From: Alkalimarinus alittae
Lineage (GTDB): Bacteria; Pseudomonadota; Gammaproteobacteria; Pseudomonadales; Oleiphilaceae
DNA length: 64,000 nucleotides
Direction: 5' to 3'
Assembly: GCF_026016465.1 (NCBI RefSeq)
Contig: NZ_CP100390.1
Location: 2,208,001-2,272,000, forward strand
Every line of letters starts with the position of its first letter. The stretch's first letter is position 1. Positions 840 to 27,010 of the stretch are shown here, one piece after another. The position numbers and the translations under genes were made by a program. The notes beneath the pieces were generated by a model. The model was not told where the DNA came from and made no database searches. It saw only the letters and a list, made by a program, of their open reading frames with translations.

Positions 840-860
840 TCAGATTTTTTAGGAGCTATT

Positions 861-7400: not shown

Positions 7401-7970
7401 GTCATCCCCATGATCGATTTTGAAGGTGACTGGTTCGAGGATGACATTAGCGAACGCTTCAAACAGTTTTTACGCGTGACCTTTGGTGATGAGCACTATA
7501 CCGAGAACGTGGCGTTTATCGAAGAGGCTTTGGGTAAAAGCATCCAAAGATACTTCGTCAAAGACTTTTACAAAGACCATGTGCAACGCTATAAAAAACG
7601 TCCGATCTATTGGTTGTTTTCCAGTTCGAAAGGCACGTTTAATGCGTTGATTTATATGCACCGTTATACGCCTTCAACCGTGAGTGTGGTGTTGAACGAA
7701 TACCTGCGTGAGTTCCGAACCAAGTTAGAAGCGCGTAAAGCCAACTACGAACACGTATCGATCAGCGCCAGCGCCTCGCAAAAAGAGAAGACCCAAGCAC
7801 TTAAGATGATAACCAAACTGGACAAAGCCATTGACGAAGTGAACGACTACGAGCGCGAAGTGCTGTACCCACTGGCAGGTCAAAATATTTCAATTGATCT
7901 AGATGATGGAGTGAAGCACAACTACCCACTCTTTGGCACAGCGCTTAAGAAAATCACAGGATTGAGCTAA
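4446..7970 (+). CDS. pglX: BREX-1 adenine-specific DNA methyltransferase PglX
   Basis: This 1,174-residue N6-adenine methyltransferase marks host DNA at the BREX site and sets phage specificity. The SAM-binding motif DPAAGSGH is at 291-298 and the catalytic NPPY at 467-470, the order of gamma-type amino-methyltransferases. Target recognition should lie downstream of NPPY. The DNA for about residues 610-880 (bases about 6,300-7,080) is clearly A+T-richer than both flanks: 19 of 60 bases are G or C at 6,301-6,360, against 33 of 60 at 7,201-7,260. This suggests an exchanged specificity segment. The ATG follows the brxC TAA immediately; pglZ starts 21 bases after the stop. The recognised sequence cannot be read from the protein. 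Confidence 0.95.
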   Translation: MDTANLKKFAQTARQDLIEQVGSKLAFVLKPESPARREYPGVVNELEKAMAVQGKAGLIEQVAYTWFNRFCALRFMDVNGYNRVGVVSPSEGQVQPEILAEAKSGVIDDTQINTRTVEQIRGLLNGTISSQDAQSEAYRLLIVGSCNALYGRMPYLFERIQDFTELLMPDDLLSENSILAKMRGVMTAESCQDVEVIGWLYQFYISEKKDQVFAGLKKNQKITAENIPAATQLFTPHWIVRYLVENSLGRLWMLNRPNSKLTEQMEYYIAPEEPESDFLKISSPEELKIADPAAGSGHMLTYAFDLLYAIYEEEGYDPNDIPSLILNNNLYGIEIDERAGALATFALEMKAAEKLGRRRFFRMDAKPNVCVLEDVSFSESEVDDVISIVGKDLYTADLRETLTQFEQAKNFGSLIVPKLKDPAETARLIEAKDFSGDLLLSEVHARLVKLLRMAEYLSPKYHVVVANPPYMGGKGMNGVLAKWLKDNYPDVKSDLFSAFIVRNTRLTLPSGQLGFMTPFVWMFISSYEKLRGFILKQKTLTSLIQLEYSGFDGATVPICTFTMQNSHMPTFRGGYVKLSDFKGAKNQAPKALEAIQNPDCGWFYRASAEDFGMIPGSPTGYWLSDASIINFEKKKSLGDVCEPKSGMSSCNSELFLRQWFEVSLNGVFKDCSGHEESQDSGLKWFPYNKGGGNRRWHGYNQTVINWHNNGSEIKRFVVNNPKDPNTTHWSRRLFNLEYFFEPGLTWSAVTSSRFSCRGVDKGVIPGTGSKSIYNLPKDVDQGRLLSFLNSKVVDEYLTVFSPTLNFEAGDVAKVPIPTSGPVGCHAVLSKISKSDWDSHETSWNFSAAPLLSPDHRGEILKCTYECLRSCWQGMTDKMYILEEENNRIFIDAYGLQDELTPEVSIEDITLTCNPAYRYGIKGTEDEREARLMADTMAEFLSYAVGCMFGRYSLDEPGLILANQGETLADYLARIPEPTFMPDDDNVIPMIDFEGDWFEDDISERFKQFLRVTFGDEHYTENVAFIEEALGKSIQRYFVKDFYKDHVQRYKKRPIYWLFSSSKGTFNALIYMHRYTPSTVSVVLNEYLREFRTKLEARKANYEHVSISASASQKEKTQALKMITKLDKAIDEVNDYEREVLYPLAGQNISIDLDDGVKHNYPLFGTALKKITGLS

Positions 7971-7991
7971 GGCACTAATTAGGTATAAAGA

Positions 7992-10541
7992 ATGACACAA
8001 AACCGTATTCAACACGCACTGGCTCGACTGTTTGAACGCCATCGAATCGTATTTTGGTATGACGACAAGCAGGAGTTTCGCGACACCTTTGAAAGCCTCA
8101 AGATGGACGGCATCGAAAAGGCTGAGGTGAAGGCCAACGAGTTTACGCTTAAACACCGCATTTTGCGTGAGGCACCGAAGCAAAGCTTTTTACTGTATTG
8201 TGAGTATAAAGAGCCTGAGTTCATCAATAACTGGTTGTTAGATGTGCAGCTGGGTAGTGAGGTGTTTCGTACCGACCAATCCGCTATCTGGCTCAGCGAG
8301 CTGAACCTGCCACCCGAGTTTTCTGATGTTGTCACCGAACACCAGGCCTTTTTTGATGCCGGGCGCGCGCCTAAGCAAGCAGAAAGCCGCAAACAGCGGC
8401 TGCTCGCGTTACTCAAACCCGATGATCTAAAACAGCAGGTACGGCTGAAGATGCTTGCAGTTTGCGCAGGTCTGAACCAGTTAGCCGATGTGCGCCTGGA
8501 TGTGATTTGCGAAAGCCTGTTCGGTGAGCTTGTTGAAGACACTCAGGCGCGATATGCGCTGATGGAGCGCTGCAACCTGACCGGTGTGTTGTGGGAACAA
8601 ATTGAACGCCACTATGCGTATGTCTCTGACTCTCCGTCCGTTAAAGATTTCTCCATTGAGTTATTTAAGTCATGTTACGCGTTATCCATTACCAACCCCA
8701 AAGCACAGGATAAAGCGTCACTCAATAACGATGCCTTAGTGTTGTTTAAGCGCTGGAAAGAAAGCCGCAAGCACGAAGCCGTGTTTGAGTCGCTCTCTGG
8801 CAGCTATGCAGCGTTGCTCGATATTGAGAGTGACCTGAACAGCCGAGATTTACGTGATGTTATTGAAATAGATTACTACCGCCTTATTGATCAGAAGATT
8901 ATTGTCGACCTGGTTAACGCAGTAAGCCAACGCACCTTATCTGAGGGGGAAGTCACCAAATACTGCCGCGAACGCCGTCAGAGCCATTGGTACAATGATT
9001 TCAAATACCTCTATACCGCCATTGAAGTCGCGAGTCAGTTCTTAGCTAAGTTAGATACTGTGCAAATGAATATGAGCAGCAGCTCGGCTGCGGTTCATGG
9101 TTACGTTCGCCACTGGTTCAAAATCGACCAGATGTACCGTAAATTTATTTATGCGCTTAAAGCATCTGGCCAGATGACGCTGTTAAGTCGTCTGGTCGAT
9201 ACCATTGAAAACCTCTACAACAATAGCTACCTAAGCCCATTGGCGACGCAATGGCAAGGGCAGGTTGATGCAATGGATACGTGGACGGTACCCGATGTGA
9301 CGCCACAACGCCAATTCTATAGCCGTTGGGTGAAGCCGTACACGAATAAGGGTAACAAGATCTGCGTCATTATCTCAGATGCCTTTCGCTATGAAGCCGC
9401 TGAAGAGATGATTGGTCGCATTAATCGTGAGAAGCGTTATCAGGCATCACTCGATCATATGTTGTCAGCACTGCCAAGTTATACGCAGTTGGGCATGGCG
9501 TCGCTGTTACCAACGAGTAATGGTGAGGTTACGATCTCAGAAACCGATAGCACCGTCTTTATTGATGGTGTCTCTACCCAGGGCACAGCCAACCGCGACA
9601 AGCAGATTAAATCAGTTTTGGGCGAAACAGCCTGTGCTCAGCAAGCAAAATCGATATTAGAGATGACTCAAACTGAAGGCCGAGAGCTGTTTAAGAACCA
9701 CGATGTTATCTACATCTATCACAACCGTATAGATCATGCGGGTGACAAGATGCAGTCGGAGGGTGAAGCCTTTGACGCGGCTGAACGCGCCTTCGAAGAT
9801 CTTCTGGTGCTCATTAAGAAGCTTGCTGCTTACAATGCATCCAACGTACTGATCACTGCTGATCACGGTTTTATCTACCAAAACCGTCCGCTCGCCGAGA
9901 GTGATTTTCTTTCTGCAGATGTGAGTGGTGATGTGCATTATCGCGACCGTCGTTTCTTGTTGGGTAAGGGGCTAACGGTACCGGATTCTATTAAAGTATT
10001 TAGCCCCGAACAGCTTGGCTTGGCAGGTGGCGTTCACGCCGCTATACCAAAAGGGATTCAGCGCCTGCGCTTAAGCGGTTCTGGCAGTCGCTTTGTGCAC
10101 GGCGGAGCCAGCTTGCAAGAGGTGATTGTTCCGGTCATCTCTGTGAATAAGAGTCGCCAGGATGATGTAGCAACCGTTGAGGTGGATTTATTACGGGGCG
10201 GTACCAACGTGATTACGGCTGGCCAGTTGTCTGTCACGCTCTACCAAACCGAGCCCGTTATCGATAAGCTCAAACCACGCGAGTTGCGTTGCGGTATTTA
10301 CACCGGGGCGGGTCAGTTGATTTCAGACGTGCATACCGTCACGATGGATCTGACCGCAGAGAATGCACGCGAGCGTGAGTTGAAATTGCGCTTTGTTTTG
10401 ACGCAAGGTGCAGACGGTGCCAATAACCAGGAAGTGAGCCTTAAGCTCGAAGAGCCAGTTGCAGGCACGAATCAATACACCGAATACAAACACTTGAAAT
10501 ATACCATTCGACGTTCGTTCACGAGTGACTTTGATTTTTAG
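7992..10541 (+). CDS. pglZ: BREX-1 phosphatase-domain protein PglZ
   Basis: PglZ here has 849 residues, typical for type 1 BREX. The N-terminal half is helical; an alkaline-phosphatase-superfamily domain follows. Its metal-site signatures are visible: VIISDAFRYEAAEEM near residue 458-472, a YHNRIDHAGD segment near 574-585, and LITADHGF near 619-626. A beta-rich C-terminal domain closes the protein. PglZ is needed for BREX function and interacts with BrxB and PglX; its physiological substrate is unclear. It starts 21 bases after pglX. It is the last gene of the G+C-richer block: 33 of 60 bases are G or C at 10,261-10,320. Confidence 0.95.
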   Translation: MTQNRIQHALARLFERHRIVFWYDDKQEFRDTFESLKMDGIEKAEVKANEFTLKHRILREAPKQSFLLYCEYKEPEFINNWLLDVQLGSEVFRTDQSAIWLSELNLPPEFSDVVTEHQAFFDAGRAPKQAESRKQRLLALLKPDDLKQQVRLKMLAVCAGLNQLADVRLDVICESLFGELVEDTQARYALMERCNLTGVLWEQIERHYAYVSDSPSVKDFSIELFKSCYALSITNPKAQDKASLNNDALVLFKRWKESRKHEAVFESLSGSYAALLDIESDLNSRDLRDVIEIDYYRLIDQKIIVDLVNAVSQRTLSEGEVTKYCRERRQSHWYNDFKYLYTAIEVASQFLAKLDTVQMNMSSSSAAVHGYVRHWFKIDQMYRKFIYALKASGQMTLLSRLVDTIENLYNNSYLSPLATQWQGQVDAMDTWTVPDVTPQRQFYSRWVKPYTNKGNKICVIISDAFRYEAAEEMIGRINREKRYQASLDHMLSALPSYTQLGMASLLPTSNGEVTISETDSTVFIDGVSTQGTANRDKQIKSVLGETACAQQAKSILEMTQTEGRELFKNHDVIYIYHNRIDHAGDKMQSEGEAFDAAERAFEDLLVLIKKLAAYNASNVLITADHGFIYQNRPLAESDFLSADVSGDVHYRDRRFLLGKGLTVPDSIKVFSPEQLGLAGGVHAAIPKGIQRLRLSGSGSRFVHGGASLQEVIVPVISVNKSRQDDVATVEVDLLRGGTNVITAGQLSVTLYQTEPVIDKLKPRELRCGIYTGAGQLISDVHTVTMDLTAENARERELKLRFVLTQGADGANNQEVSLKLEEPVAGTNQYTEYKHLKYTIRRSFTSDFDF

Positions 10542-10606
10542 CTTCGTTTTTTGACTTGTGTTTTAAACTTAACAGATTGGAAAACGGAATTTCCAAGGGA
10601 ATATTT

Positions 10607-12673
10607 ATGAGTGAACTGGATACTAAAATTTGTGATGTCTTTGCAGGCTTAGTGGTCCGTAAAGATCTAGTGAAGACCGTGAAGGGCAACGCGATTGTTC
10701 CTTCTTATGTTCTTGAATATTTACTCGGACAATATTGTGCGACTAACGATGAAGATAGTATCGAAAGTGGTATTCAGACCGTTAAAGAAATATTAGCCAA
10801 GCATTATGTGCATCGTAACGAGGCTAACCTAATCCGTTCGGAGATTTCACGAAAAGGAAGTTTAAAAGTAATCGATAAGATAGAGGTTACTTTTAACGGT
10901 GATAAAGGTGTACATGAGGCGGCATTTGATAATTTAGGTATCTCAAAAGTGTTGGTTGATGGTGATACGGTTAAAAAACACTCTAAGTTACTGGTCGGTG
11001 GTGTTTGGTGTATTTCGGATGTCCAGTATTTTTCATCAGAAGAAAAAGATGTCTGCCCTTGGATTCTTAATTCGATAAAGCCTATCCAGCTCTCTAGTTT
11101 TGATTTTGAGCAGTACTTAGCCTGTAGAAAGCAATTTTCTAAGAACGAATGGGTCGATTTACTTATTCAAAGTATTGGGTTTAATCCTGATGCATTGAGT
11201 TGGAGAAGTAAATTGACGCAACTTATTCGCTTAATTCCATTCTGTGAGAGAAATTACAACCTTATCGAGCTAGGGCCAAAAGGTACGGGTAAGTCTCATA
11301 TCTATTCCGAATTTTCGCCTCACGGTACTTTAGTTTCGGGCGGTGAAGCGACATTAGCAAAGCTCTTTATCAATAATACGACGGGGAAAATAGGCCTAGT
11401 GGGTTATTGGGATGTCGTCGCGATGGATGAATTTGCAGGTAGAGGAAAGAAACCAGACATTAAGCTTATTGATACCTTAAAGAACTACATGGCTAATAAG
11501 TCATTCAACCGCGGTACAGGCCCCCAAGGTGCAGAAGCTTCTATGGTGTATATAGGTAATACCTCTCATAACGTGCCTTATATGCTTAAAAATGCTGACC
11601 TGTTTTACGATTTACCTGACTCGTATCGAAATAGTGACGGGCAAGCAGTACTTGATCGCTTGCATTATTTTATACCTGGTTGGGAAATGGAAAACCTTCG
11701 AAGCGATATGTTTACATCAGGCTATGGCTTTGTTGTTGATTACCTTGCTGAAGTATTGCGTTCATTAAGAAATAAAGATTACGGCGATGGTTTTACTAAA
11801 TACTTCACCTTGTCTAGTGATATATCAACACGTGATAGAGATGGTATAACTAAGACATTCTCTGGGCTAATGAAGATCATTTTCCCGAGCGGTGAGGCCA
11901 CTCAAGCTGAAATGGAAGAGCTTCTAAATTTCTCAATTGAAGGGCGTAAGCGAGTTAAAGATCAATTAATGCGAGTTGATGCGACTTACAGTGCTGTTAG
12001 TTTCGGATATAGCGATGGTGCTCAGAAATTCCATTCTGTTTTAACTTTGGAAGAGCAAGAATTTCCCCAATATTATGGGACAACTAGCAATACAGATGAA
12101 CCTCAAAGTCAATTACTGGATGACCTGCCTTTAGAGAATGGTTTGGCAGATGCTACTGCTAAACAAGACCTAGTTGAAGAAACTGAATTAAAAGAACAAC
12201 ACCTCACTTTTCTGGAAAACCAAAGAGGCGTTTGTTATGACGACTTATTTGGCCCGTACTTAAAAGGCGCCACTCATATCACCATAACAGACCCCTACAT
12301 TCGTTTGTTTTTTCAAGCTAGAAACGTAATGGAGCTCCTTGAAACCATCGTTAAAGGCAAATCAGAAGCGGATGAAATTGTTGTTAATCTCGTTACCGTC
12401 GAAGATGAGTTTAAAGGAGAAGAACAGCGCAACTTTTTTGAACAAATGCAAAGTTCAATGCTCGCCGTAGGTATTAAGTTTGACTGGACGTATGATAATT
12501 CAGGCGCACAGCATGCACGCCATATTGTGACCGATACTGGCTGGAAAATATCTTTAGATCGTGGTTTGGATATTTATCAACAGTACGATATGAACGATAC
12601 ATTCCAGCTAGCAAACCGCATGCAAAAACAACGTGCGTGTAAGGCGTTTGAGGTGACTTATATTAAGGTGTGA
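10607..12673 (+). CDS. brxL: BrxL AAA+ protein with C-terminal MITD1-like (MIT_C) domain
   Basis: Start chosen at the ATG preceded by AAGGGA; an upstream TTG at 10,556 lacks a ribosome site. The 688-residue product has a BrxL N-terminal region (1-200), Walker A GPKGTGKS at 223-230, Walker B VVAMDEFAG at 270-278, and the conserved tail of the AAA core near 420-455. After a variable acidic linker (about 490-535) comes a domain at about 540-688 with DPYIR at 562-566 and GWKISLDRGLDIYQ at 645-658. These closely resemble the PLD-like C-terminal domain of MITD1 (MIT_C). I see no Lon protease-like segment. BrxL is a DNA-binding AAA+ ring needed for phage exclusion but not for methylation. The gene is A+T-rich compared with brxB-pglZ. 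Confidence 0.88.
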   Translation: MSELDTKICDVFAGLVVRKDLVKTVKGNAIVPSYVLEYLLGQYCATNDEDSIESGIQTVKEILAKHYVHRNEANLIRSEISRKGSLKVIDKIEVTFNGDKGVHEAAFDNLGISKVLVDGDTVKKHSKLLVGGVWCISDVQYFSSEEKDVCPWILNSIKPIQLSSFDFEQYLACRKQFSKNEWVDLLIQSIGFNPDALSWRSKLTQLIRLIPFCERNYNLIELGPKGTGKSHIYSEFSPHGTLVSGGEATLAKLFINNTTGKIGLVGYWDVVAMDEFAGRGKKPDIKLIDTLKNYMANKSFNRGTGPQGAEASMVYIGNTSHNVPYMLKNADLFYDLPDSYRNSDGQAVLDRLHYFIPGWEMENLRSDMFTSGYGFVVDYLAEVLRSLRNKDYGDGFTKYFTLSSDISTRDRDGITKTFSGLMKIIFPSGEATQAEMEELLNFSIEGRKRVKDQLMRVDATYSAVSFGYSDGAQKFHSVLTLEEQEFPQYYGTTSNTDEPQSQLLDDLPLENGLADATAKQDLVEETELKEQHLTFLENQRGVCYDDLFGPYLKGATHITITDPYIRLFFQARNVMELLETIVKGKSEADEIVVNLVTVEDEFKGEEQRNFFEQMQSSMLAVGIKFDWTYDNSGAQHARHIVTDTGWKISLDRGLDIYQQYDMNDTFQLANRMQKQRACKAFEVTYIKV

Positions 12674-12771
12674 TTTTAGGGCGCTGAATGATAGAGGCTT
12701 GTTTTAGTTGTCTCTTAGTATTAGTAAGTAAAAAGAATAGCAATAATAAACGAGTTATTAAGGACGATTTG

Positions 12772-14119: not shown

Positions 14120-16483
14120 ATGCCAGATAAAACACAATACGAGTTTAATGGTAAAACACTGGGTAAAGGGCCATTAGCTTTAGCGGTTATCAAGTATTTG
14201 GTGGAAGAGCAGGAGCATAGTTTTGAAGAACTGAATAAACTGCTTGATGGGTTCAAATTTAGGTCTGGTGGTGTGTTGCTTGATGCCCAAGAGTATCTCA
14301 ATAGGCTCACAGTAAAACCTGATACTAAAAACCGCTTTTTTAAAGATGACTCTATTACCGACAAAAAGGGGCAAGAATTTCTTGTCAGCAGTCAGTGGGG
14401 TCTTGGTAATATTGATAAGCTTGTTGTTTGGGGTAGAAATTTTGGCCTGGAAATAAAAATTCTTGTTGATGAGTCTAGCATTTTATTCAAGAAATTTAGT
14501 GCTTATAAGCAAGGCCCTATGCCTCCATGGATTACCACATGGATTAACAGCTATAACGATCTTTGTACATATATTAAGTCAATTGACCCTGATGCTTTTG
14601 ACTATTCTGAGCAGAGCTTTTTAGAGCGCTACTGGCGTGATGCATCTAATGGCATAAGTAGTGTTAAACCCGGTTTCTTGAGTAATGATGAGTTTTCAGC
14701 TTTAAAATCAGAGTTCCCTGATATTAGCAAAAAAATACTACAAGACCCTTCTTCAGAAACTCTTGATAATGTTATTGCCTGGGCAAAACAGGCAAAGCAG
14801 AGTGGTAAGTTTAACACTATTAAATATGGCGTTATACATCGCTTTTTTTGTGCATGCGCTCCACAGCAGTATTGTTCGATTCTTAATCTCGATCACCTGA
14901 AAGCGTTTATTCATAAGTGGAATGAACAAAAACTAGGTCCTAAAATTGAGCCTAAGGGAAATTGGGCAGACTTAAACCAGAGTATTGTTCAAACTATCAA
15001 GTTACGCGGTTTTGAAGATGAAGACCTCTATTTACTTAATACGTTTATTTACAGACTTAAAGAAGACATTCTGGGTGAAATTGATGATGTATTTGGTATT
15101 GGGAGTGTAAATGCTGATGGATATAACTCAACCCAGAACAGATCTCTAGAAGGCCTTGAGACTATTTCATTAAACACTATTCTCTATGGTCCACCAGGAA
15201 CTGGCAAAACCTATCACACGGTTGATATGGCGGTGAGAACTGCTGATCCAGATTTTTCCGGAAATCGTGAACAAATTAAAAAACGTTACGATGAGTTGGT
15301 GCTTGAGAAGCGTATTCGGTTTGTAACTTTTCATCAAAGTTTTAGCTATGAAGAATTTATTGAAGGGTTAAAAGCAAGTACTGATAGTGGAAGCATTAGT
15401 TATCAGGTTGAGCCGGGTATATTTAAAAAACTTTGTAATGATGCAGCAGTAGGAAGCACCAAAGTTACTAACTCTTTAAATCTAGCTATTGAGTCATTTA
15501 AGTCGACTTTAGATGAAAAAGAGACTTTTGCTTTGAAGACATTGAAAGGTAAACCCTTCAATATTGAGTACCATGGCAATTCCACTTTTCGAATATTCCC
15601 CTCAAATTCAAAACACGATGATTTGGGTCGTGGTTACCCTGTATCTATTGAACATATTCATGAGCTATATCGTAACCCTGAAACTGATATTGTGTATAAC
15701 CGCTCCTACGCAAAGAGCATACTTTTATATTTGAAAAGTAAATATGATGTAAAAGATTTTGTTCATCCCACTACGCATACGCAAGAAAACTATGTGCTTA
15801 TTATCGATGAAATAAATCGCGGTAATATCTCTAAGATATTTGGTGAACTTATCACGCTTATAGAGCCTTCTAAACGAGCAGGGCAGCCAGAATCTTTGAC
15901 TATTCGTTTACCTTATTCTAATGAGCCGTTCTCTGTGCCAAATAATCTTCATATTATTGGCACCATGAACACCGCCGATCGTTCATTGGCTATGATGGAC
16001 ACAGCGCTACGCCGTCGCTTTGACTTTGTTGAGATGATGCCCGATTACGGAGTGCTAAATGGAACTGAGGTATGTGGGGTTGATTTGGCCGAGCTTCTGA
16101 AGTCTATGAATGACCGCATCGAGTATTTATATGACCGTGAACATATGCTGGGGCACGCTTTTTTTATTCCAGTAAAAGAGGCTGCTTTAGAGCATAAGCA
16201 AGAGGAACTGATTTCGGTGTTTAAAAACAAAGTCATTCCTCTGTTAGAAGAATACTTCTATGAAGATTGGGCGAAGATTCGTCTCGTACTAGGTGATAAC
16301 CAAAAAAATGATACGGACCATCAGTTCGTGACGGAAGTGACCGATGCCAGAGGGGCTAAAGCCTTGTTTGGTAATGCCTATGAAGACAATCAATATGAAG
16401 GTGAAACCAAACGGTATCAACTCAATGAAGATGCATTTGCTGAGCCTGAAAGTTACCTAGGTATTTTAGGTAAATCTAATTAG
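14120..16483 (+). CDS. mcrB: McrB-like AAA+ GTPase of a type IV restriction system
   Basis: This 787-residue protein has an N-terminal specificity region of about 345 residues and a C-terminal McrB motor. The P-loop GPPGTGKT is at 357-364, Walker B IIDEINRGNIS at 561-571, the McrB signature GTMNTADRS at 614-622 (E. coli McrB uses MNTADRS for GTP), and the arginine-rich RRRFDF at 631-636. McrB translocates DNA and drives McrC cleavage of DNA carrying modified bases. The N-terminus is not the E. coli methylcytosine-binding domain as far as I can tell; residues 1-130 look like a small helical module and 130-320 is helical, so the recognised modification is unknown. The ATG follows TAAGGAG. mcrC begins just after the stop. 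Confidence 0.9.
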   Translation: MPDKTQYEFNGKTLGKGPLALAVIKYLVEEQEHSFEELNKLLDGFKFRSGGVLLDAQEYLNRLTVKPDTKNRFFKDDSITDKKGQEFLVSSQWGLGNIDKLVVWGRNFGLEIKILVDESSILFKKFSAYKQGPMPPWITTWINSYNDLCTYIKSIDPDAFDYSEQSFLERYWRDASNGISSVKPGFLSNDEFSALKSEFPDISKKILQDPSSETLDNVIAWAKQAKQSGKFNTIKYGVIHRFFCACAPQQYCSILNLDHLKAFIHKWNEQKLGPKIEPKGNWADLNQSIVQTIKLRGFEDEDLYLLNTFIYRLKEDILGEIDDVFGIGSVNADGYNSTQNRSLEGLETISLNTILYGPPGTGKTYHTVDMAVRTADPDFSGNREQIKKRYDELVLEKRIRFVTFHQSFSYEEFIEGLKASTDSGSISYQVEPGIFKKLCNDAAVGSTKVTNSLNLAIESFKSTLDEKETFALKTLKGKPFNIEYHGNSTFRIFPSNSKHDDLGRGYPVSIEHIHELYRNPETDIVYNRSYAKSILLYLKSKYDVKDFVHPTTHTQENYVLIIDEINRGNISKIFGELITLIEPSKRAGQPESLTIRLPYSNEPFSVPNNLHIIGTMNTADRSLAMMDTALRRRFDFVEMMPDYGVLNGTEVCGVDLAELLKSMNDRIEYLYDREHMLGHAFFIPVKEAALEHKQEELISVFKNKVIPLLEEYFYEDWAKIRLVLGDNQKNDTDHQFVTEVTDARGAKALFGNAYEDNQYEGETKRYQLNEDAFAEPESYLGILGKSN

Positions 16484-16500
16484 CGCTTGGGATGCTTGTC

Positions 16501-17862
16501 ATGAAACGCGATATGAATAAAATTAAAGGCTTCGCTTCTAATTCTGTGACTATTTTTGAGTATGGCTACCTCAGCGCCGATTTAGAAAATGCATATTGCG
16601 CTAAAATAAGTGCTCAGTCGTTTTACTACCTTGAACGTCTTGCGTTAACTCAAGACAATAAAACTAATGAGCTTTTACGATTGTGTGACTACCAGGGGGC
16701 AAAAGCCATTAAGGTGATGAATTACGTAGGGGTAATTCAAACTCCGTTTGGTGAGCATATAGAGATCTTACCTAAAATTGCGCGTAGGTTGCCTGATGCC
16801 AATGCATCGAGTACAGGTGAGGCTTTAGCACGAGAAGCCTTGCTCAATATGCTGAAACACCTTAAACACTTTCGGCACATTGAATCATCTGACTCCCAGG
16901 TAGCCGCTTTGAAAATGCCGCTGTTGGAAGTGTTTATTCGCCAGTTCCTACAAAGCGTTAACCAACTGGTTAAGCGTGGGTTAAGATCTGACTATGTACG
17001 AAGAGAAGATAATCAATCGTTCCTCAAAGGCAAGTTGTTAACTTCCAAGCAACTAAAACATAACTTGATTAACCAACATTGTTTTTATGTGGAATACGAC
17101 GAGTACCTTCAAGATCGTCCTATTAACCGCCTGATTCATACAGCCCTTAACAAAGTAGCAGGCCTGGCGCAGTTGAACTCGCATCAAAAATTATGCCGCG
17201 AGTTGTTGTTTGCTTTTGCAGACATACCCCTTAGCAAGTGTATTAAAAATGACTTTACATCTTTGCGCTTAGATCGTGGCATGGATTACTACCATACTCC
17301 GTTGGCATGGACGCGTTTAATTCTGGAGGGAGACAGCCCCATATCCATGCAAGGAAAGGCCAATGCCTTATCATTACTTTTTCCAATGGAAGCCGTATTT
17401 GAAGCGTACGTTGGCAGTATTTTAAAAAGTGTGGTGCGCCAAGAATATCGGTTGGAAGAACAAAGGTCTTTCAGATCATTGGTTGTTCATGAACACAAGA
17501 AGTGGTTTAAATTAAAACCGGATTTTTTGGTGTTAAACCAGAAAGATACCGTATTGGTAATGGACTCTAAATGGAAGCTTCTTAATAGCAGCAAAGCCAA
17601 TGGTTACGAGAAATACGGCTTATCCCAAGCCGACTTTTATCAAATGTTTGCTTATGGTCATAAGTACCTTGAAGGGCAGGGGCAGCTTGTTCTTATTTAT
17701 CCTGTTAGCGAAACCTTTAAAGAACCCATTCAAGCCAGCTTTGATTATGACTCAAATCTAAAACTCTGGGTCGTACCTTTTGATATCGACCCTGCAGTTA
17801 AGGATGTAGACAGACTGAAACTGCCTGATGGGTTAGATTTAGATGTTTTCAGAGATTGTTGA
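16501..17862 (+). CDS. mcrC: McrC-like nuclease subunit
   Basis: The start is taken at the ATG with GGGA eight bases upstream; an in-frame ATG at 16,492 is also possible. The product of about 453 residues is normal for McrC. The N-terminal part binds the McrB ring. The C-terminal PD-(D/E)XK nuclease shows KPDFLV near residue 340 and VMDSKWK near 354-360, giving the D...DxK catalytic pattern. It lies immediately downstream of mcrB, as in all McrBC systems. An island carrying both BREX and McrBC could stop unmodified phage by BREX and modified phage by McrBC; that division of labour is inference. Confidence 0.9.
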   Translation: MKRDMNKIKGFASNSVTIFEYGYLSADLENAYCAKISAQSFYYLERLALTQDNKTNELLRLCDYQGAKAIKVMNYVGVIQTPFGEHIEILPKIARRLPDANASSTGEALAREALLNMLKHLKHFRHIESSDSQVAALKMPLLEVFIRQFLQSVNQLVKRGLRSDYVRREDNQSFLKGKLLTSKQLKHNLINQHCFYVEYDEYLQDRPINRLIHTALNKVAGLAQLNSHQKLCRELLFAFADIPLSKCIKNDFTSLRLDRGMDYYHTPLAWTRLILEGDSPISMQGKANALSLLFPMEAVFEAYVGSILKSVVRQEYRLEEQRSFRSLVVHEHKKWFKLKPDFLVLNQKDTVLVMDSKWKLLNSSKANGYEKYGLSQADFYQMFAYGHKYLEGQGQLVLIYPVSETFKEPIQASFDYDSNLKLWVVPFDIDPAVKDVDRLKLPDGLDLDVFRDC

Positions 17863-18129: not shown

Positions 18130-19389
18130 ATGAACAACAAAATCATTATCAATCCATTAGAGCCTATTACATGCCCTGATTGCGGTCATGACTTCCCCCT
18201 GAGTGAAGGAATTACTCGTCAAATGATAGAACGCTATGAAGGTGAGTATTCAGAAATGCTTACGGAGGAGCGAGGTAAACTGGAAGCAAGGCTGGTTCAG
18301 GACATAGAAAAGAAAGCGTTAAAAAACTATCAAGAAAAGCTAGAGGTGATCAGTGAAAAATTAGCAGACAGTGAGGCTGCGAATAAAAAAGCGGCTGCTA
18401 AGTTGAAAAGCGCCAAAGAAAAGGCCGCTATAGAAGCTCGCAAAGAGTTAATTGAAGAAGCAAATAACCTTAAAGAAGAGCTAGAAGCAAAAGACTCTAA
18501 ATTAGAAGAGTATCGTCGCGCAGAGTTAACGCTTCGAAGCGAAAAGAAACAACTGGAAGATCAGAAAAGGGACATGTCCCTTGAGATCGAACGTCGTCTG
18601 GATAAAGAACGTCAAAAAATTGAATCGGATGCCCATGAAAGCTACAAACTTCGGGATGCTGAATGGCGTAAAAAAATTGAAGATGCACAACGTGCGAATG
18701 AAGACCTAAGGAAAAAGTTAGAGCAAGGGTCACAGCAATTACAGGGCGAGGTGCTCGAGCTTGAAATTGAAAACCTATTACAGGCTTCGTTTTCGTCGGA
18801 CTCTGTTAAGCCTGTACGCAAGGGCGCAAGAGGTGCGGATGTAATTCAAACGGTGATGTTGAGAAACGGGTCAGTCTGTGGGCAGATTATATGGGAGACC
18901 AAGCGTGCTGAGAATTGGTCGAATAGCTGGATTCCTAAACTTAAAGATGATCAACAAGCTGCGGGTGGTGAGATTGCAGTCTTAGTTAGTTCGGTATTTC
19001 CTGCTGGACTGAAAGCCCCTTTTGTACAGCAAGATGGTGTCTGGTTGGTTAAACCTGAATTTGTTAAGCCCTTTGCAGAAGCTTTACGTACTGTTTTAAC
19101 TGAGTCTTATAGGCAGCGTGCAGCGACTATTGGCAAAGGTGAAAAAATGGAGGCTCTCTATGACTATATCTGCAGTGCTCAATTTGCTCAAAAAGTAAGA
19201 GCTATAGTTGATACTTATCAACAAATGAGGGATGACCTTGAGAAAGAAAAATCAGCTATGCAGCGCCTCTGGAAAAAACGTGAAGGGCAATTAACGCGCA
19301 TTACCACAAATGTTATGGGAATGTGTGGTGAGTTACAGGGAATCTCCTCGAGTACTTTACCCCAATTAGAGGGTGTTGCAGAACTGTAG
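18130..19389 (+). CDS. DUF2130 protein: zinc ribbon half, coiled coil and PD-(D/E)XK-like domain
   Basis: The 419-residue protein begins with a CPDCGHDF motif (15-22), half of a zinc-ribbon-like element. A long charged coiled coil (about 40-205) follows, then a DUF2130 domain with the pattern of a PD-(D/E)XK nuclease: LELEIENLL at 209-217, RGADV with Asp237, and IWETKRAE with Glu256 and Lys258. A second helical region (about 340-395) closes it. The family is widespread and uncharacterised; nuclease activity is inferred from the residue pattern. A good TGAGGA ribosome site precedes the ATG. Position between McrBC and the helicase, and the shared upstream element, suggest it belongs to the helicase group. 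Confidence 0.75.
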   Translation: MNNKIIINPLEPITCPDCGHDFPLSEGITRQMIERYEGEYSEMLTEERGKLEARLVQDIEKKALKNYQEKLEVISEKLADSEAANKKAAAKLKSAKEKAAIEARKELIEEANNLKEELEAKDSKLEEYRRAELTLRSEKKQLEDQKRDMSLEIERRLDKERQKIESDAHESYKLRDAEWRKKIEDAQRANEDLRKKLEQGSQQLQGEVLELEIENLLQASFSSDSVKPVRKGARGADVIQTVMLRNGSVCGQIIWETKRAENWSNSWIPKLKDDQQAAGGEIAVLVSSVFPAGLKAPFVQQDGVWLVKPEFVKPFAEALRTVLTESYRQRAATIGKGEKMEALYDYICSAQFAQKVRAIVDTYQQMRDDLEKEKSAMQRLWKKREGQLTRITTNVMGMCGELQGISSSTLPQLEGVAEL

Positions 19390-19410: not shown

Positions 19411-19530
19411 GTTACTAAAAAATACGCAGAAGCGTAGTCTAATCATACGGAAATACAGCGTCTCAATGGTTTGGAACGCTGCACTCCTCACTATCGAGCT
19501 GAGCTAAATAAATATAGGACTGGTTTTCAA

Positions 19531-22500
19531 ATGAATGCACCTGAAAAAATAGAATCTGGAATAGAAATTTTTCAAGATTTTAACTTTGATTTAAAACCAG
19601 AGCCTTCTGCCCTTGACCGTCTTTTGACTAAAATTTTAGTCGCGCCTTATCTACGAGAGCCTGAATCTGGAGGTTGCCTAGTTCCCCTTCCATTTCAAAC
19701 GGGAATTGGCAAAACCTATACTGCGCTAAATTTGATACTGGAAGAGGTCTTACACCAAATAAAGTGTGAGATTGAGGGGGATGGTCAGCCGTGTAAAAAA
19801 GGAAAGATAATCTATATAACTGACTCTGTTGATAATGTACTCAATGCCTACTCGGACCTGCATAAGCTGATTGATGATCAAGAAGTTGACGGGACAGCAC
19901 GTTTTACAGATGAGCAAGCACAGTACTTAAAGCAAAAAATACTGTATTTACCAAACCAGGCGACTCAGTTGCTGAGTTGTTCAGCTGAAGACATTGCACG
20001 GATACTTGAGGCGTTTGAGCTTGATCAATATCGTGAAATTAGTCGTGAAGTGACTAGGCTTTTTAATTTGCAACGTCTTATTAAAGATAAGCCAGAATCG
20101 AAACCCATTTTGAATGCGGGTTTAGAGAACGATGCAAGTAAGCTCTATAGTAAAATCGCTGACTCTATTCGAAGCCGCCAACGAAGTGATCAACCTGTTG
20201 TAATAGGTCAATCATTAATGCAGGTGTTAGGGCGGTTTTTACCGGGCGAGTTAATACAGACAGATGCATCTAATGTAATGTTTATGACGACTCAAAAATA
20301 CCTTGCGGGTTGTCATCATACTAAAGGCAAGTATCGGCCACTAAGGGATCTTGAGAATCAGTTACTGATAATTGACGAGGTTGATAAACAGAACCTTGAA
20401 ATATTAGGTGTTTTAACCAAGCAACGAGCTAATGATTTGGTGAGTTCGTTACGGACGTTAGAGCGGAACCTTAATCGTTACCGTCTTGAAAACGCCCAAC
20501 GATACGATGGTATTGATTCATTCTTTGATGAGCTGCGTAGCGAACTTTTAGCGTTTGATGCTCGCTGGCATATTGAGTATGCCTTCAATACAGATGGTGA
20601 TTCACTTCACGATAAACCCTTAAGTCTTTTCTCTGATCGTGCCGCTACACACGTACACACGATGAGCCACCGTTTGAGCCTTCAGTGTCGTCATGAGTTG
20701 AAGAAGAACTTAATTGTGGCAGAAGAAAAGCTAGGTAGTGGGTCATTCGAAGATAAACCAAGTAATCAATTAACTCAGTTTGTTAACGAAGCCGACAGGC
20801 TTTACCAACGCTTTTTCCAAGTCATGCAAAAATCCGTGAGGCAATACCAAACGAATATTGCTATGTCTTCCCGTATGGGTAATAGCCGCTTAGATAAGTT
20901 GGTTGAGGGTACTCAGCAAGAGGCTGTGTTGTCTATTTTGGCACATTACAACCTAAGTGAATTTGCTTACCGAGTACTAGAGGCGTTTGATCGACAAGGT
21001 TTAGGCCGGATTAAAAGTGGAAGCGTGATGACTAGGGCTAGTTATCACCAACGCGGCTTAAAGTTAGTGGATGTGGGCCGTAATCAAGGTACTCACGATA
21101 CAGTTCACTGTAGTTTTTATGGGTTTCAGCAGACGCCTTCAGCATTACTGCTTGATATGGTTAATAGTGGTGCGCGTATCCTTGGTGTGAGCGCTACGGC
21201 TGATGCTCAAACAGTTTTGCATAATTTTGATTTCAAATATCTTAATGAGTGTTTAGGGGAGCGCTTAGTAACGCTTAATAAAGACCAGCGTAAATTAATT
21301 CACGATTACTATGCCGCCAAAAGAGATTACGTTAATAGTGGCGTTAAATTATCGGTTAACTCGTTTAGAGCGTCGGAAGCGTTCTTGGTTAACTGCATTG
21401 AAGAGTGGATGCCTGGAGTTCGTACCCCGGGAGTTGTTCTTCAACAGCTTTTTAATGGCGATGGTGATTCGTGTAACTATGAGAAGAGCTGGTTATCTAA
21501 ACTTTTGCAATCAATTAAACACTTTTGCTCCACTCAAGATAACCGTTATATGGTAGCGATGCTAAACCGGACGGTGAGTGCTGACAAGTATCCAAAACTC
21601 ATTCCGTTTTTAAATGGATGTATTAATCGATGGCTAGAAGCCGTAGGTCAGACTGGGAGGCTTTTTGTTGGCGTCAATGCAACCTTCATGAAGGATGGTG
21701 GATACCGGGATGAAATTCTTCAACAGTTAGAGAATGAAAAAGGGAAAGTCATTGTTCTTAGTACGTATGCCAGTATGGGGGCTGGGAAAAACCCTGATTA
21801 TTGTTTTAACCCAGAGAATGAGAATGACTCCCTTGTATATGTCAGTGATAGGCAGGTAAATCAATGCCGGACTGATATCGATGCTATCTATCTTGAAAGA
21901 CCTACTCAACTATTGCCGTCTATTGATGACACTTCGAAAATACAAAGTAAGTTAGTGCAGTTTCATAATATTTTATCGCTCCAGGAAACCGGTGAAATAT
22001 CACCCGTTGAGGCTAAGTCTTGGTGTTTGGCGATATTAAATAATCAACCTCGGCCAGCTTTATTGAAGCGTTATTACCAGACAGATGATTATCGACACAC
22101 AGTGTGTAAGTTAATTGAACAAGCGGTTGGGCGTACTGCAAGAACTGCTTTTAAACGACGCGAAATCCATTTATTTGCTGACCACGAGCTGGTTGAATTC
22201 ATGTCAGAAGATCATCGAGATACCGCTTTATTTTCTAATGAATATACCGCTCTTGTTGATTACTCTAAGCAATATCAAGTGCCAGATAACAAAGACAGAA
22301 TGAAACATCGTCAGCAGAATCTTGCTATTCGTAATAATAAAGAGTCGGCACTCTATATGTTTAACTTATTGGCTCGCTTGATGAAACATCCTGATGTTAA
22401 GGGTATACAGAATTGGGAAGCGATTAGAGAGCAATTGTTGGAGTTTCCAACGGGTGAGGAGAGTCACTCAGATTGGTCAAGGTTTTACGTCGAGAGCCCT

Positions 22501-23163
22501 TTACCGTCAAGCTATCGCTATGACGGTGATCTCGATAATAGAAATAGACTGAATGATTTTCATTTTTTTGACTTCGCAAATGAAGCTAATGAAGTGAGTG
22601 AACACGAATCGGGCCTCACTTCGATGGTTAAAAACGACACGGTGAGGCAATGGTTTATTGAGCATGGTTGGGCTACTTGCTGGAAAAACAGCAAACGCTT
22701 AATGACGCCGGTAATGTTTACGAATATCTATAAAGGAGCGCTGGGTGAGCAAGCCTGTATAGCGTTGTTAGATTCTGTAGGACTTGAAGTGGACCGCGTG
22801 CCAATTGAGTTATATGAACACTTCGACGGTGTTATAAAAAGCGATTTTGGCGATGCCTTTGTTGATTTTAAACACTGGCAGGGCGTTGGCCTTGGTGACC
22901 CACAAAAATTAATTAAAAAATTAGAAAATATATCAACTAAGAGTGAGATTAAAAGGTTTGTGTTTTGTAATGCGCTTGGGACGCCAGGTACTGTTAGCTA
23001 TTTAGACTCTACGTTATTAGAAACAAGTAAAAGTAGAGCGCAAGTGATAACCATCCCAGCTTTGATTGATAGCGAGTCTGGAGAAACGATTATAAGTGTG
23101 CTTGAAGAGTTAGCACAGTGGCTATGTCTACCAGTGGAAGGGTTAAACAGTGAGTATTGTTAA
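19531..23163 (+). CDS. Large SF2-type helicase with C-terminal PD-(D/E)XK-like domain, candidate defence effector
   Basis: The start is the ATG after TAGGAC; the frame is open from an ATG at 19,471 but without a ribosome site. The 1,210-residue product has helicase motifs: Walker A QTGIGKT at 56-62, motif II IIDEVDK at 280-286, SATAD at 554-558, a motif V-like STYASMGAG at 744-752, and motif VI EQAVGRTART at 863-872. The 270 residues between motifs II and III are unusually long and may form an inserted domain. The C-terminus has GALGE at 1069-1073, HFDG with Asp1099, and VDFKHW with Asp1111 or Asp1112 and Lys1114, the layout of a PD-(D/E)XK nuclease. I cannot match it to a named system; a distant DinG-like or Cas3-like relation was considered. 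The next gene overlaps it by 14 bases. Confidence 0.7.
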   Translation: MNAPEKIESGIEIFQDFNFDLKPEPSALDRLLTKILVAPYLREPESGGCLVPLPFQTGIGKTYTALNLILEEVLHQIKCEIEGDGQPCKKGKIIYITDSVDNVLNAYSDLHKLIDDQEVDGTARFTDEQAQYLKQKILYLPNQATQLLSCSAEDIARILEAFELDQYREISREVTRLFNLQRLIKDKPESKPILNAGLENDASKLYSKIADSIRSRQRSDQPVVIGQSLMQVLGRFLPGELIQTDASNVMFMTTQKYLAGCHHTKGKYRPLRDLENQLLIIDEVDKQNLEILGVLTKQRANDLVSSLRTLERNLNRYRLENAQRYDGIDSFFDELRSELLAFDARWHIEYAFNTDGDSLHDKPLSLFSDRAATHVHTMSHRLSLQCRHELKKNLIVAEEKLGSGSFEDKPSNQLTQFVNEADRLYQRFFQVMQKSVRQYQTNIAMSSRMGNSRLDKLVEGTQQEAVLSILAHYNLSEFAYRVLEAFDRQGLGRIKSGSVMTRASYHQRGLKLVDVGRNQGTHDTVHCSFYGFQQTPSALLLDMVNSGARILGVSATADAQTVLHNFDFKYLNECLGERLVTLNKDQRKLIHDYYAAKRDYVNSGVKLSVNSFRASEAFLVNCIEEWMPGVRTPGVVLQQLFNGDGDSCNYEKSWLSKLLQSIKHFCSTQDNRYMVAMLNRTVSADKYPKLIPFLNGCINRWLEAVGQTGRLFVGVNATFMKDGGYRDEILQQLENEKGKVIVLSTYASMGAGKNPDYCFNPENENDSLVYVSDRQVNQCRTDIDAIYLERPTQLLPSIDDTSKIQSKLVQFHNILSLQETGEISPVEAKSWCLAILNNQPRPALLKRYYQTDDYRHTVCKLIEQAVGRTARTAFKRREIHLFADHELVEFMSEDHRDTALFSNEYTALVDYSKQYQVPDNKDRMKHRQQNLAIRNNKESALYMFNLLARLMKHPDVKGIQNWEAIREQLLEFPTGEESHSDWSRFYVESPLPSSYRYDGDLDNRNRLNDFHFFDFANEANEVSEHESGLTSMVKNDTVRQWFIEHGWATCWKNSKRLMTPVMFTNIYKGALGEQACIALLDSVGLEVDRVPIELYEHFDGVIKSDFGDAFVDFKHWQGVGLGDPQKLIKKLENISTKSEIKRFVFCNALGTPGTVSYLDSTLLETSKSRAQVITIPALIDSESGETIISVLEELAQWLCLPVEGLNSEYC

Positions 23164-25216
23164 AACGACTAAAGTAAAAAATATTGCGTTAGACCGAGTC
23201 GCTATACAAGATAAATTTAAAGTTTATCAAATTAGTTATAGAGGTCTTGAGAAATCAGAACGTAGAACGAGCTATAAGAACATTGTAAGATCGCTTTATG
23301 GTACAGGTAAGGTATTGAGCCTGGTGCAAAATTGGAAGTTTAGCTGTTATTTGGTTCTATTACCTGCCAATTCGTCGTGCCAATTAGATGATCAGCGGTT
23401 AGCAATCACAGAAGTTCCCATTGATGGCGCTAGCAACTTACCTGACTGGCAGTTGGCGCGCTTGTTAATCAAAGCGATGCCTCACTTAATTAAAGGCGAT
23501 GATGTAAGTTCAGGTATGAGTCGTTTTGAAGCAGAAGGGCTATTTTATGTAGTCAAAGCGGTTAAGACACCTAAAAAAGGGATTAAAGAGACCACGCTAG
23601 TGACACTAGAAGTGGACCTTCAGCCATGTTTGCTTAACCAAGGACAGCGCTTGGCACTTGGAGTCAAAACGTTTACTCCTGTTTCCTATCACACTGCTCC
23701 TGACGGAGCGCTCTATCGAGATGTCCAGAACAGTACTCGTTATAGTTTTGATCAGTGGGCTCAGTTAGTCGCTAAGAGTGCCAAGGGGGATTACATCAAA
23801 CGTAGCTTTAGAGGCGGTAGAAAGAACACCGTGGCTATGGTGGATGTGACCAGCGATTCTTATATGAATTTTCAGATGAGTAAATTGGGTATTCTGGCTC
23901 AGTTTATAGATGATCTTCAGTCCTGCTATGAGGGGGCTTTAGAAATCGAGTTTGATGAAATAGAGAGTAGTGTACGAGAGGAATGGCGTAACGCTACAAA
24001 GTCAGTCGAGCAATGTTATAACAAAATTTTCGAGCATCTACGGCAATTCCCCATTGCATTAATTGATTACGGTAAGAATAGAAAGGCAAGTGTGTTATTT
24101 GAAAGCTACTTATTAAGAGAAGGCTTTGTGGTTGAACACACCAATATCCCCACAGAAGGTGGCTTAAATCTGCTTTTGGTTGAAAATGTTGATAGCTACG
24201 AGACAGACGAGGATGACCCATATAAGCGGATCAAACGTCAGCACCCTAACGCAGTCATTCAATCCTCTGAGGCAGAAAACCTAATTCTTTTAAAGAAAGG
24301 TGAAACGTTGCTTAATCGCAGTGTGGCTGAAGTATTACTTAAAGAGCTTTTCATTAAACATGAAGTGCAATCTAGACGTTTTTTACTTTCAGACTATCAA
24401 CCTCCAGAAGGGTGGATTTTCGGTCTGCCTGAAGTAAATTGGAAAGACCGCTCATATAAGTTGAATGTCATGAAAGTCTGTAACGAACTCTTGGAATTTG
24501 ATACTTACAATGAGCTGGAGTCAGATGACTTGTTGCTTGATTTTGGAGAGCATAAGCACCTAATAGATGACAAGTCCGCCCCGTTTTTACTAGATGAAGC
24601 TTCGGGTGATTACTATATATTTATGGATACAGGAGTCGTTGCACTCCCTGAATTTGAGGCGCTCAGTGAAACGCTTAAAGAAATTCATCATTGCAGAAGT
24701 AAAGGTATTGAAAAATATTGGATACTTGAGTTTATCGAGCAAGTAGCCCCAAATATTGATAAAGCCGGTATTTTGGTAGATCAGTTGCAAACGGTTTTGG
24801 CGGCTAATCAAAATGAAAAGTCGATCGCTTGGTCTGATCTTTCTCAAGTTCATAACAAAGGTGCAGGCAAACACTTCTATGAATGGTTGATGAGCGAGAA
24901 AGGATTCAAGCTTAAAGACTCTTTACGTAGTTGGGACAGCGGTCACTTTGAAGCAACGCAAGGCTTTTTCTATAATGCTGAGAGCAAGCAGTATTATGTT
25001 GGCGCTATAGGCAGTGTTCGCAGTTCAATACCTAAATTTTGCCAAATTCGTCAGATCGTCACTAATCGTGAAGACGTACCTAAAAAAGTACTCGACCTGC
25101 TGTCTGCACTTCATATTCGGCACCGCCAGCTAACAGTTATGCCATATCCGTTTAAACATTTAAGGGAGTATGTAGCTAGACAGGCTTTGGCGGAAAAACT
25201 TGGGAGTGAAATATAG
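23150..25216 (+). CDS. Unassigned 688-residue partner of the helicase; possible PIWI/Argonaute-like fold
   Basis: It starts at GTG, seven bases after GGAAGGG, inside the helicase C-terminus (14-base overlap), so the two are made together. I do not recognise the family. Residues 1-220 look beta-rich. Residues about 298-375 form an alternating unit around FPIALIDYGKN (300-310), NLLLVENVD and DPYKRIKRQHPNAVIQ (356-371), which recalls an Argonaute MID region. The C-terminus has YYVGAIGSVRSSIPKF (615-630) and RHRQLTVMPYPFKHLREYVA (658-677), which recalls the end of PIWI domains. A convincing DEDX catalytic set is not visible. pPIWI-RE proteins are known to travel with DinG-type helicases and nucleases, which would suit the context. 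This is a hypothesis only. Confidence 0.45.
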   Translation: MSIVKTTKVKNIALDRVAIQDKFKVYQISYRGLEKSERRTSYKNIVRSLYGTGKVLSLVQNWKFSCYLVLLPANSSCQLDDQRLAITEVPIDGASNLPDWQLARLLIKAMPHLIKGDDVSSGMSRFEAEGLFYVVKAVKTPKKGIKETTLVTLEVDLQPCLLNQGQRLALGVKTFTPVSYHTAPDGALYRDVQNSTRYSFDQWAQLVAKSAKGDYIKRSFRGGRKNTVAMVDVTSDSYMNFQMSKLGILAQFIDDLQSCYEGALEIEFDEIESSVREEWRNATKSVEQCYNKIFEHLRQFPIALIDYGKNRKASVLFESYLLREGFVVEHTNIPTEGGLNLLLVENVDSYETDEDDPYKRIKRQHPNAVIQSSEAENLILLKKGETLLNRSVAEVLLKELFIKHEVQSRRFLLSDYQPPEGWIFGLPEVNWKDRSYKLNVMKVCNELLEFDTYNELESDDLLLDFGEHKHLIDDKSAPFLLDEASGDYYIFMDTGVVALPEFEALSETLKEIHHCRSKGIEKYWILEFIEQVAPNIDKAGILVDQLQTVLAANQNEKSIAWSDLSQVHNKGAGKHFYEWLMSEKGFKLKDSLRSWDSGHFEATQGFFYNAESKQYYVGAIGSVRSSIPKFCQIRQIVTNREDVPKKVLDLLSALHIRHRQLTVMPYPFKHLREYVARQALAEKLGSEI

Positions 25217-25411: not shown

Positions 25412-27010
25412 ATGACACAAGTAGCCTATTTATCTAACGCAACAACACTTAAATCCACCGATAACTACGCATTCTTACAGCATACCTTCCCCGAACTATA
25501 TCGGGTAAGCAGTGAGGCAGATAAATATTATGCAACTGATCATTCGTGCTGTTTATTAAAAGCACGGTTATTTGTGGAGTTGTGGTGTCACGAAGTGAGC
25601 GACAGGTTAAATCTCACTCCACCTATTTCAGGTGACTTGGTCGATAAGATCAACCAGATATCGATTTGTGGCAAAGTACCGCCTTATATTATTGAAGCAT
25701 TAAATGAGGTTCGACGAGAAGCCAATAAAAGCGCACATATAACGCAGTGTTTTGATGGTCAGTGGACTAGCGATACGTCTGTAAGTAAAACTAGGCTGAA
25801 GCGTTTAATGACTAGTGTGTTTGAGCTTGCCCAATATTTGGCTTTTAAACTAAACAATCAAGCTGAAGACAACAAACAATGGCAAGAGCCTGTCGTTTCA
25901 GAGCTGGCTGAACAAGTGGTTGCCTCGTTGTCAGGTAATAAAGACGCCACATTTTCTTTAGCCGAGCGCGCTTCGTCATTAATTGAATTAAGTGTTAAGC
26001 AGGGAGAAGTCACAGGCAACGAAAAGAAAGAGCATATAAAGCTGCTGCAGCGAGATTTAAGTTATTGGTTAGATAAAGCGCACCGCCAAGGGCATCATGA
26101 AACATGGTTAATGTACGCTAATGTGTATATAAAAAAGCAACTGATGCTGCCAGAAAGTCAAACTATTGATAGCTGTTTTAAACATGCTTTAAAAGTCGAC
26201 ACAACAGGCGAGGCGGCCTATCAGTTTGGCATGTACTTGATGGCTCGGTCGCAATATAAGCGAGGTCTTGATTTAGTTCTGGAAGCGGGGGGCATGGCGC
26301 ACCATCAAGCAATTAGAATTCTACAAGAAATATTTTACAAGAAAGACCATCAACAATACTTGGCCTGGGTAAGTGCAGGGGTTGATGCACTTGAAAAACG
26401 TTCATTTACGTTAGACCTTGAAAATAAGATATCGCAATGGGAGCAAGACGTTAACAATGACGTACTTAAGAAAAAAGCCAAAACTGCGCTTATTAGTGCT
26501 GAATCTAGACAGTCCGATGGGGCACTATATTATCGAGGATATTGCACGCTTAAGGGTTACTGGGGGAAGCAACCTGAGACTGAACTAGGTCTAAAGAGTA
26601 TGGTTGATCATTACCCGAATCTACCTCAGTTTCTTCATTATGAGCATCAACTATTTAACCTGATTAAAAGTAAATCCGAATACATAGATGAGGCATTATC
26701 GGTATCAGATAGAGCTTTAAAAGCGTGCGAAACCACTGAAGAAAAAGCACAAGTTAAATTTGATATGGCGATGATAATCTGGGAAAAGCTGCGCGAGTGC
26801 AACAAAGTTAAATCACCCCATAGCATGAAACAGCTAATAAGGGATGCTGCACGAGAAAGTTGTAGTGATGCGATTCAATTTATTAAATCACCCAAGGGTA
26901 AAGCATTAATGCGTGATGGAAGTTATGCATGTGTTAAAACTAAACACAGTAGTGTTGACCGTAAGAAACAGAAACAAGCTAAAAAGTTAGCAAGAAAAGC
27001 GAGACGGTAA
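25412..27010 (+). CDS. DUF4145-like N-terminal domain with helical repeats
   Basis: The 532-residue protein starts after AGAAGGATC. Residues about 20-160 resemble the DUF4145-type helical domain also seen at the N-terminus of some HsdR restriction subunits: ARLFVELWCHEVSDRL, then a helix pair with NEVRREANKSAH. Residues about 210-500 are amphipathic helical repeats of SEL1/TPR character (EAAYQFGMYLMA, GALYYRGYCTLKGYW). The C-terminus is strongly basic (KKQKQAKKLARKARR). No catalytic motif is visible. It probably serves as a binding or scaffold protein. The TGYCC element upstream links it to the DUF2130 and helicase genes. The family assignment is tentative. Confidence 0.6.
   Translation: MTQVAYLSNATTLKSTDNYAFLQHTFPELYRVSSEADKYYATDHSCCLLKARLFVELWCHEVSDRLNLTPPISGDLVDKINQISICGKVPPYIIEALNEVRREANKSAHITQCFDGQWTSDTSVSKTRLKRLMTSVFELAQYLAFKLNNQAEDNKQWQEPVVSELAEQVVASLSGNKDATFSLAERASSLIELSVKQGEVTGNEKKEHIKLLQRDLSYWLDKAHRQGHHETWLMYANVYIKKQLMLPESQTIDSCFKHALKVDTTGEAAYQFGMYLMARSQYKRGLDLVLEAGGMAHHQAIRILQEIFYKKDHQQYLAWVSAGVDALEKRSFTLDLENKISQWEQDVNNDVLKKKAKTALISAESRQSDGALYYRGYCTLKGYWGKQPETELGLKSMVDHYPNLPQFLHYEHQLFNLIKSKSEYIDEALSVSDRALKACETTEEKAQVKFDMAMIIWEKLRECNKVKSPHSMKQLIRDAARESCSDAIQFIKSPKGKALMRDGSYACVKTKHSSVDRKKQKQAKKLARKARR

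Follow-up and report, generated by a model that had tools for sequence, protein, structure and literature searches.

A ddmDE-type gene pair beside BREX and McrBC-like genes in Alkalimarinus alittae

The window analyzed here, a 64,000-nt stretch of the Alkalimarinus alittae genome whose own numbering is used for all positions, contains two overlapping genes that almost certainly form a ddmDE operon, encoding a DNA-guided plasmid-elimination system of an already-known kind, here in another bacterium. The first gene, ddmD (19531..23163, + strand), encodes a superfamily 2 (SF2) helicase with a C-terminal PD-(D/E)XK-type nuclease, 1,210 aa long when read from its ATG. The second, ddmE (23150..25216, + strand), starts with GTG and encodes a 688-aa Argonaute-like protein of the long prokaryotic Argonaute (pAgo) type, with the MID-type residues Y358-x3-K362, Q371, and K403. 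The two frames, ddmD then ddmE, overlap by 14 bases and are both intact. Open frames and motifs bear out the original prediction, made from the DNA letters alone, of a 1,210-residue SF2 helicase with a PD-(D/E)XK-like C terminus and an overlapping 688-residue partner. The longest open frame of ddmD extends further upstream, from a TTG at 19471 (19471-23163, 1,230 codons). The ATG at 19531 is the likelier start, since it is preceded by AGGA and since solved DdmD chains align from residue 10 of the 1,210-residue reading onward. DdmD residues are given in this shorter numbering unless the 1,230-residue frame is stated.

Both proteins match DdmDE components over nearly their full length. In PADLOC, DdmD matches profile PDLC04130 with 1083 bits (profile positions 4-1187 of 1190, residues 30-1218 of the 1,230-residue frame), and DdmE matches PDLC04131 with 438.7 bits (profile positions 15-684 of 687, residues 6-679 of 688). 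Among the sequences of the PDB, the first protein matches five distinct DdmD chains (9khv, 9ezx, 8u0w, 8u0u, and 9bf1) at E values of about 1e-299 and its partner three distinct DdmE chains (8u0j, 8u3k, and 9ezy) at about 1e-122, over the same spans as the PADLOC matches, while the nuclease region of DdmD on its own matches DdmD chains at 1.6e-36. These profile and PDB matches are far beyond chance. No PADLOC family other than DdmD or DdmE was listed for either protein at a limit of E 1, although the HMMER filters discard most matches above about 0.1 and the pPIWI-RE content of the library was unchecked. Pfam gave no above-threshold domain for either protein, and only sub-threshold DEAD and ResIII matches for DdmD. 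The two-gene defense-type module with a helicase-nuclease fusion recognized in the original prediction is thus what PADLOC also finds, as DdmD and DdmE. Its statement that the pair could be matched to no named system is contradicted by the same profiles and PDB chains, and its suggestion of an undescribed or entirely new type falls, DdmDE being already known; a clear match to a characterized defense family, which it had itself listed as evidence against novelty, is what we found.

The catalytic residues expected of DdmD are in place. The helicase motifs are GIGKT (with K61), DEVD (282-285), SAT (554-556), and QAVGRTAR (864-871), and the nuclease residues are E1073, D1099, and D1112-x-K1114; K61, D1112, and K1114 had already been placed correctly. 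In an alignment of 12 DdmD rows, which comprise the window, 10 loci from the genome_contigs collection, and one viral contig, K61, D282, E283, D285, S554-T556, Q864, G867, R868, and R871 are identical in 12/12, as are E1073, D1099, D1112, and K1114. Not among these rows are the truncated L036 (loci and genomes carry our own L and G numbers), L037, where the gene is split over two frames, and L019-L024, the loci that the order and class searches gave. Wider alignments of DdmD and DdmE, with three more distant relatives (n=7 each), were also made, and K61, the D/E/D of motif II, SAT, Q864, G867, R868, and R871 of DdmD are kept in 7/7. The alignment rows are not independent, two from Pseudoalteromonas and two from Aliivibrio being very alike. 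The very long stretch between motifs II and III, which the original prediction had noted, is real: it measures ~270 residues and aligns with DdmD of Vibrio cholerae.

The structure prediction that had been proposed for the 688-residue protein was run with AlphaFold2, using the DdmE of the window with 11 relatives, and yielded a model with a mean predicted local distance difference test (pLDDT) score of 83.3 and a predicted template modeling (pTM) score of 0.80. Searched against the PDB with Foldseek, this model gave 31 matches at E values up to 0.001, the top six being DdmE chains (2.1e-61 to 9.9e-28) and 23 others Argonaute or PIWI chains; the remaining two belong to a single entry, whose title says no more than 'protein-DNA complex'. 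With the 25 non-DdmE matches the TM-scores reach only 0.25-0.39 by query, a low range that marks the relation of DdmE to them as distant. As modeled, DdmE is a protein of Argonaute-type fold with MID-type residues, in agreement with the earlier description of a MID-like, Argonaute-type partner. Residues 422-499 of the model show, toward the C terminus, a strand-strand-strand-helix-strand order, which we read as compatible with a PIWI fold of RNase H-like type. The stretches originally read as MID-like, DPYKRIKRQHPNAVIQ (residues 356-371), and as the end of a PIWI domain, PYPFKHLREYVA (residues 665-676), each contain parts that are strongly conserved in DdmE.

In pPIWI-RE systems, a protein of PIWI/Argonaute type is accompanied by a nuclease and a DinG-type helicase. 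A divergent system of this kind, in which helicase and nuclease are fused and which acts on R-loops, had been the original proposal, and the Argonaute/PIWI-type fold of the partner speaks for it. However, the helicase adjacent to that partner is not DinG-type but a nearly full-length DdmD by its 1083-bit match, DdmD and DdmE are the only PADLOC families listed, and DdmE chains top the fold matches, so we give the proposal almost no credence. Both a new system and a pPIWI-RE relative were rejected on these PADLOC, PDB, and fold matches.

The MID residues bear on a second named system. ApsAB, an antiplasmid relative of DdmDE from Escherichia coli sequence type 38 (ST38), is described as sharing the architecture of an SF2 helicase with a PD-(D/E)XK nuclease and an Argonaute-like partner (PMC11096173). 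In the account given there, Y-x3-K...Q...K is the MID motif of ApsB and DdmE is said to lack it, yet the partner encoded in the window carries these residues, which would favor an ApsAB-type system over DdmDE proper. Three points make this extremely improbable. The partner matches DdmE at E values of about 1e-122 by sequence and 2e-61 by fold; ApsB, compared here through its published description, is reported to have no sequence similarity to DdmE (PMC11096173), of which the present partner is a clear example; and all 12 DdmE rows keep the Y, Q, and K of the motif, eight of them having R at its fourth position. These rows are the window and 11 loci, L036 being short at the N terminus; the order- and class-search loci were left out, and L038 and L040 contain no DdmE. 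Across them D356, P357, Y358, Q371, and K403 are invariant (12/12), while position 362 is K in three, R in eight, and Y in one (K or R in 11/12). In the wider DdmE alignment D356 and K403 are kept in 7/7, and the most distant row, L024, is without Y358 and Q371. The MID residues alone thus do not separate ApsB from DdmE. The alignment suggests that the aligned DdmE proteins retain the Y-x3-K...Q...K motif, R being allowed for K; if borne out, these retained guide-pocket residues would narrow the gap between ApsB and DdmE.

Catalytically active pAgo proteins have a DEDX tetrad, for which more conserved acidic positions would be expected than are seen here. From residue 420 of DdmE onward, acidic residues occur in at least 11 of the 12 rows at D493 and E673 only. 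The PIWI domain of DdmE is probably inactive as a catalyst, a reading that two conserved acidic positions would fit.

The closest characterized counterpart is DdmDE of V. cholerae, on VPI-2, with which the present pair shares near-full-length homology of both proteins, the ddmD-ddmE operon, the helicase and nuclease motifs, and an Argonaute-like DdmE, as well as a location among defense genes, as a review describes it for V. cholerae (PMC12409362). According to this review, the V. cholerae neighbors are a type I restriction-modification (R-M) system, TgvAB, and Zorya, in contrast to the BREX and McrBC-like genes found here. With DdmDE of Lactobacillus casei (9ix4, 9iw3, and 9ixm) the likeness lies in the DdmE fold (Foldseek E values of 4.4e-29 and 9.9e-28) and in the C-terminal part of the present DdmD, which L. 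casei DdmD matches at 2.9e-19, whereas the DdmE proteins are only 14-15% identical. Several observations weigh against assigning the pair to DdmDE. The DdmE of the window is only about 34-35% identical to the solved V. cholerae protein, and its DdmD 34-44% identical to that of its relatives; by sequence, L. casei DdmE is matched at a non-significant E value (0.26); the regulator context differs, there being no WYL gene like VC1772 beside ddmD among the open frames of at least 60 codons in the window; and plasmid elimination by the present copy is an activity predicted from homology.

How such a system works has been described for V. cholerae, in which DdmE, a catalytically inactive long pAgo, uses a DNA guide to locate plasmid DNA and recruits DdmD, whose autoinhibited dimer then disassembles, loads onto the non-target strand, translocates 5'-to-3', and cuts via its nuclease domain (PMC12409362). 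The review's treatment leaves the complete degradation of plasmids by DdmDE unresolved (PMC12409362). A second review (PMC12904381) swaps the names DdmD and DdmE in one sentence, and its table agrees with the roles given in PMC12409362. By analogy, the present DdmE would bind a DNA guide, target plasmid DNA, and recruit DdmD, whose autoinhibited dimer would come apart; DdmD would then load onto the non-target strand, move 5'-to-3', and cut through its nuclease domain. We infer that the present copy may act in its own host as V. cholerae DdmDE does.

In the bacterial order to which the window belongs, DdmE was found at E values up to 0.001 in 6/390 genomes, the window's own included. Among these, the frame is broken in G352, the copy in G120 is a short fragment at the end of a contig, and the G278 match covers only the last 190 or so residues. 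DdmD was found in 5/390 genomes of the order (own included; G383 weakly, at 1.2e-7), in 3/369 of a class sample (own included; G738 weakly, at 2.6e-4), and in 0/14 control genomes, and DdmE in 1/5 genomes of a genus sample, the window's own. A scan of genome_contigs with DdmE alone gave no matches; a later profile search of this collection with the DdmD alignment gave 12 loci, in 10 of which (L037 included) ddmE directly follows ddmD in the same orientation. The other two, L036 and L038, come from one genome and show no whole pair, and their genes are close to the ends of contigs. Such a rare and patchy occurrence would fit a horizontally moved defense module. Carriage of DdmDE by plasmids or phages was rejected: DdmE matched 0/72,556 plasmid records and 0/50,697 phage records (the latter searched with DdmE only and not with DdmD), and DdmD matched three of the 72,556 plasmid records, at 20-26% identity and 34-56% coverage.

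Three of the relatives merit mention. In L037 (9947-13485, + strand), from an Oceanospirillaceae metagenome-assembled genome (PBNY01000002.1), ddmD is in two overlapping frames of 654 and 539 aa, owing either to a frameshift or to an assembly error. L040, the sole viral-contig match (IMG/VR viral collection, contig of 53,777 bases), has a DdmD and a WYL gene; either the copy is carried by a prophage or an island, or host DNA has been classed as viral. Genome G105 (L020, L021, and L025; L021 is also L036, and L020 overlaps L038) has two different DdmD copies, on C4 and C7, the latter truncated at 903 aa, and two different DdmE copies, on C3 and C7, all near contig ends; two DdmDE systems in one cell are possible.

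Directly upstream of ddmD, on the same strand, is a DUF2130 gene (18130..19389, +; PF09903, 203.9 bits) that ends 141 bases before it. In 8/13 fetched loci of relatives the gene directly upstream of ddmD is instead a divergent one for a WYL-domain protein (Pfam WYL passed the threshold in four of the six upstream proteins scanned, fell just short of it in one, and was absent from one), and the review places the WYL gene VC1772 upstream of V. cholerae DdmDE (PMC12409362). In the window, DUF2130 occupies this place, and it could be argued that DdmDE is inactive here, or repurposed with the DUF2130 protein as a new component. We consider this highly unlikely, since both frames are intact, all checked catalytic residues are present, and a BLAST search for DUF2130 at E 1e-4 found nothing among frames of at least 80 aa in the loci of the 13 relatives. 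On this absence DUF2130 is unlikely to be a third component, and its gene is probably unrelated to DdmDE. We regard the lack of a WYL gene and the presence of DUF2130 as minor local departures. An elaborated reading, a DdmDE variant that would combine the missing WYL regulator, a K-type MID pocket of the ApsB form (Y358-x3-K362...Q371...K403), and a DUF2130 protein co-regulating or coupling it with the BREX/McrBC-like genes, strikes us as very unlikely.

The DdmDE pair lies in a wider defense setting. Outside it, upstream, are the genes of a BREX system (BrxB, BrxC, PglX, PglZ, and BrxL; 201..12673, +), followed by a gene for a 447-aa protein (12688-14031, +) between BrxL and the next ATPase, and by a McrBC-like pair (14120..17862, +) encoding an AAA_5 ATPase of 787 aa and a McrBC-family protein of 456 aa. 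The 447-aa protein, for which there was no PADLOC match to E 0.1 and no Pfam match to E 0.01, is possibly part of this BREX/McrBC-like island. Downstream, a 532-aa protein (25412..27010, +) matches the phage-defense candidate PDC-M16A over residues 16-210 (54.3 bits) and DUF4145 of Pfam below threshold, and has no match in the 13 relatives' loci. Next come a PcfJ-like and a small AAA_33 protein; the genes starting at about 29.5 kb encode C92 peptidase, phasin, and endonuclease/phosphatase domains. In the relatives, PADLOC assigned 7/10 scanned flanking proteins (six from L028, one from L033, and three from L034, most flanking genes being outside the scan) to defense families, namely four type I R-M subunits, two of the HEC-06/Orf5 kind, and one PtuA-like. 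The neighborhood survey that had been suggested thus places the pair among defense genes, beside BREX/McrBC-like ones, while the claim of an undescribed system fails. What the window adds is a DdmDE member in another host and in a BREX/McrBC-like setting; it is otherwise ordinary.

Two features of the surroundings stand apart from the pair. BrxL (10556-12673, +) ends in a MIT_C phospholipase-D-like domain (PF16565, 140.4 bits, residues 558-704). About 6.7-12 kb upstream of the window (L026:7989-13294, +; G000:C1:2195989-2201294), an FtsZ-like GTPase gene is followed by genes for a WCX protein, a WYL+WCX protein, and a double-AAA ATPase, with IS66 transposase pieces adjoining, and this group could be a further defense or regulatory cluster.

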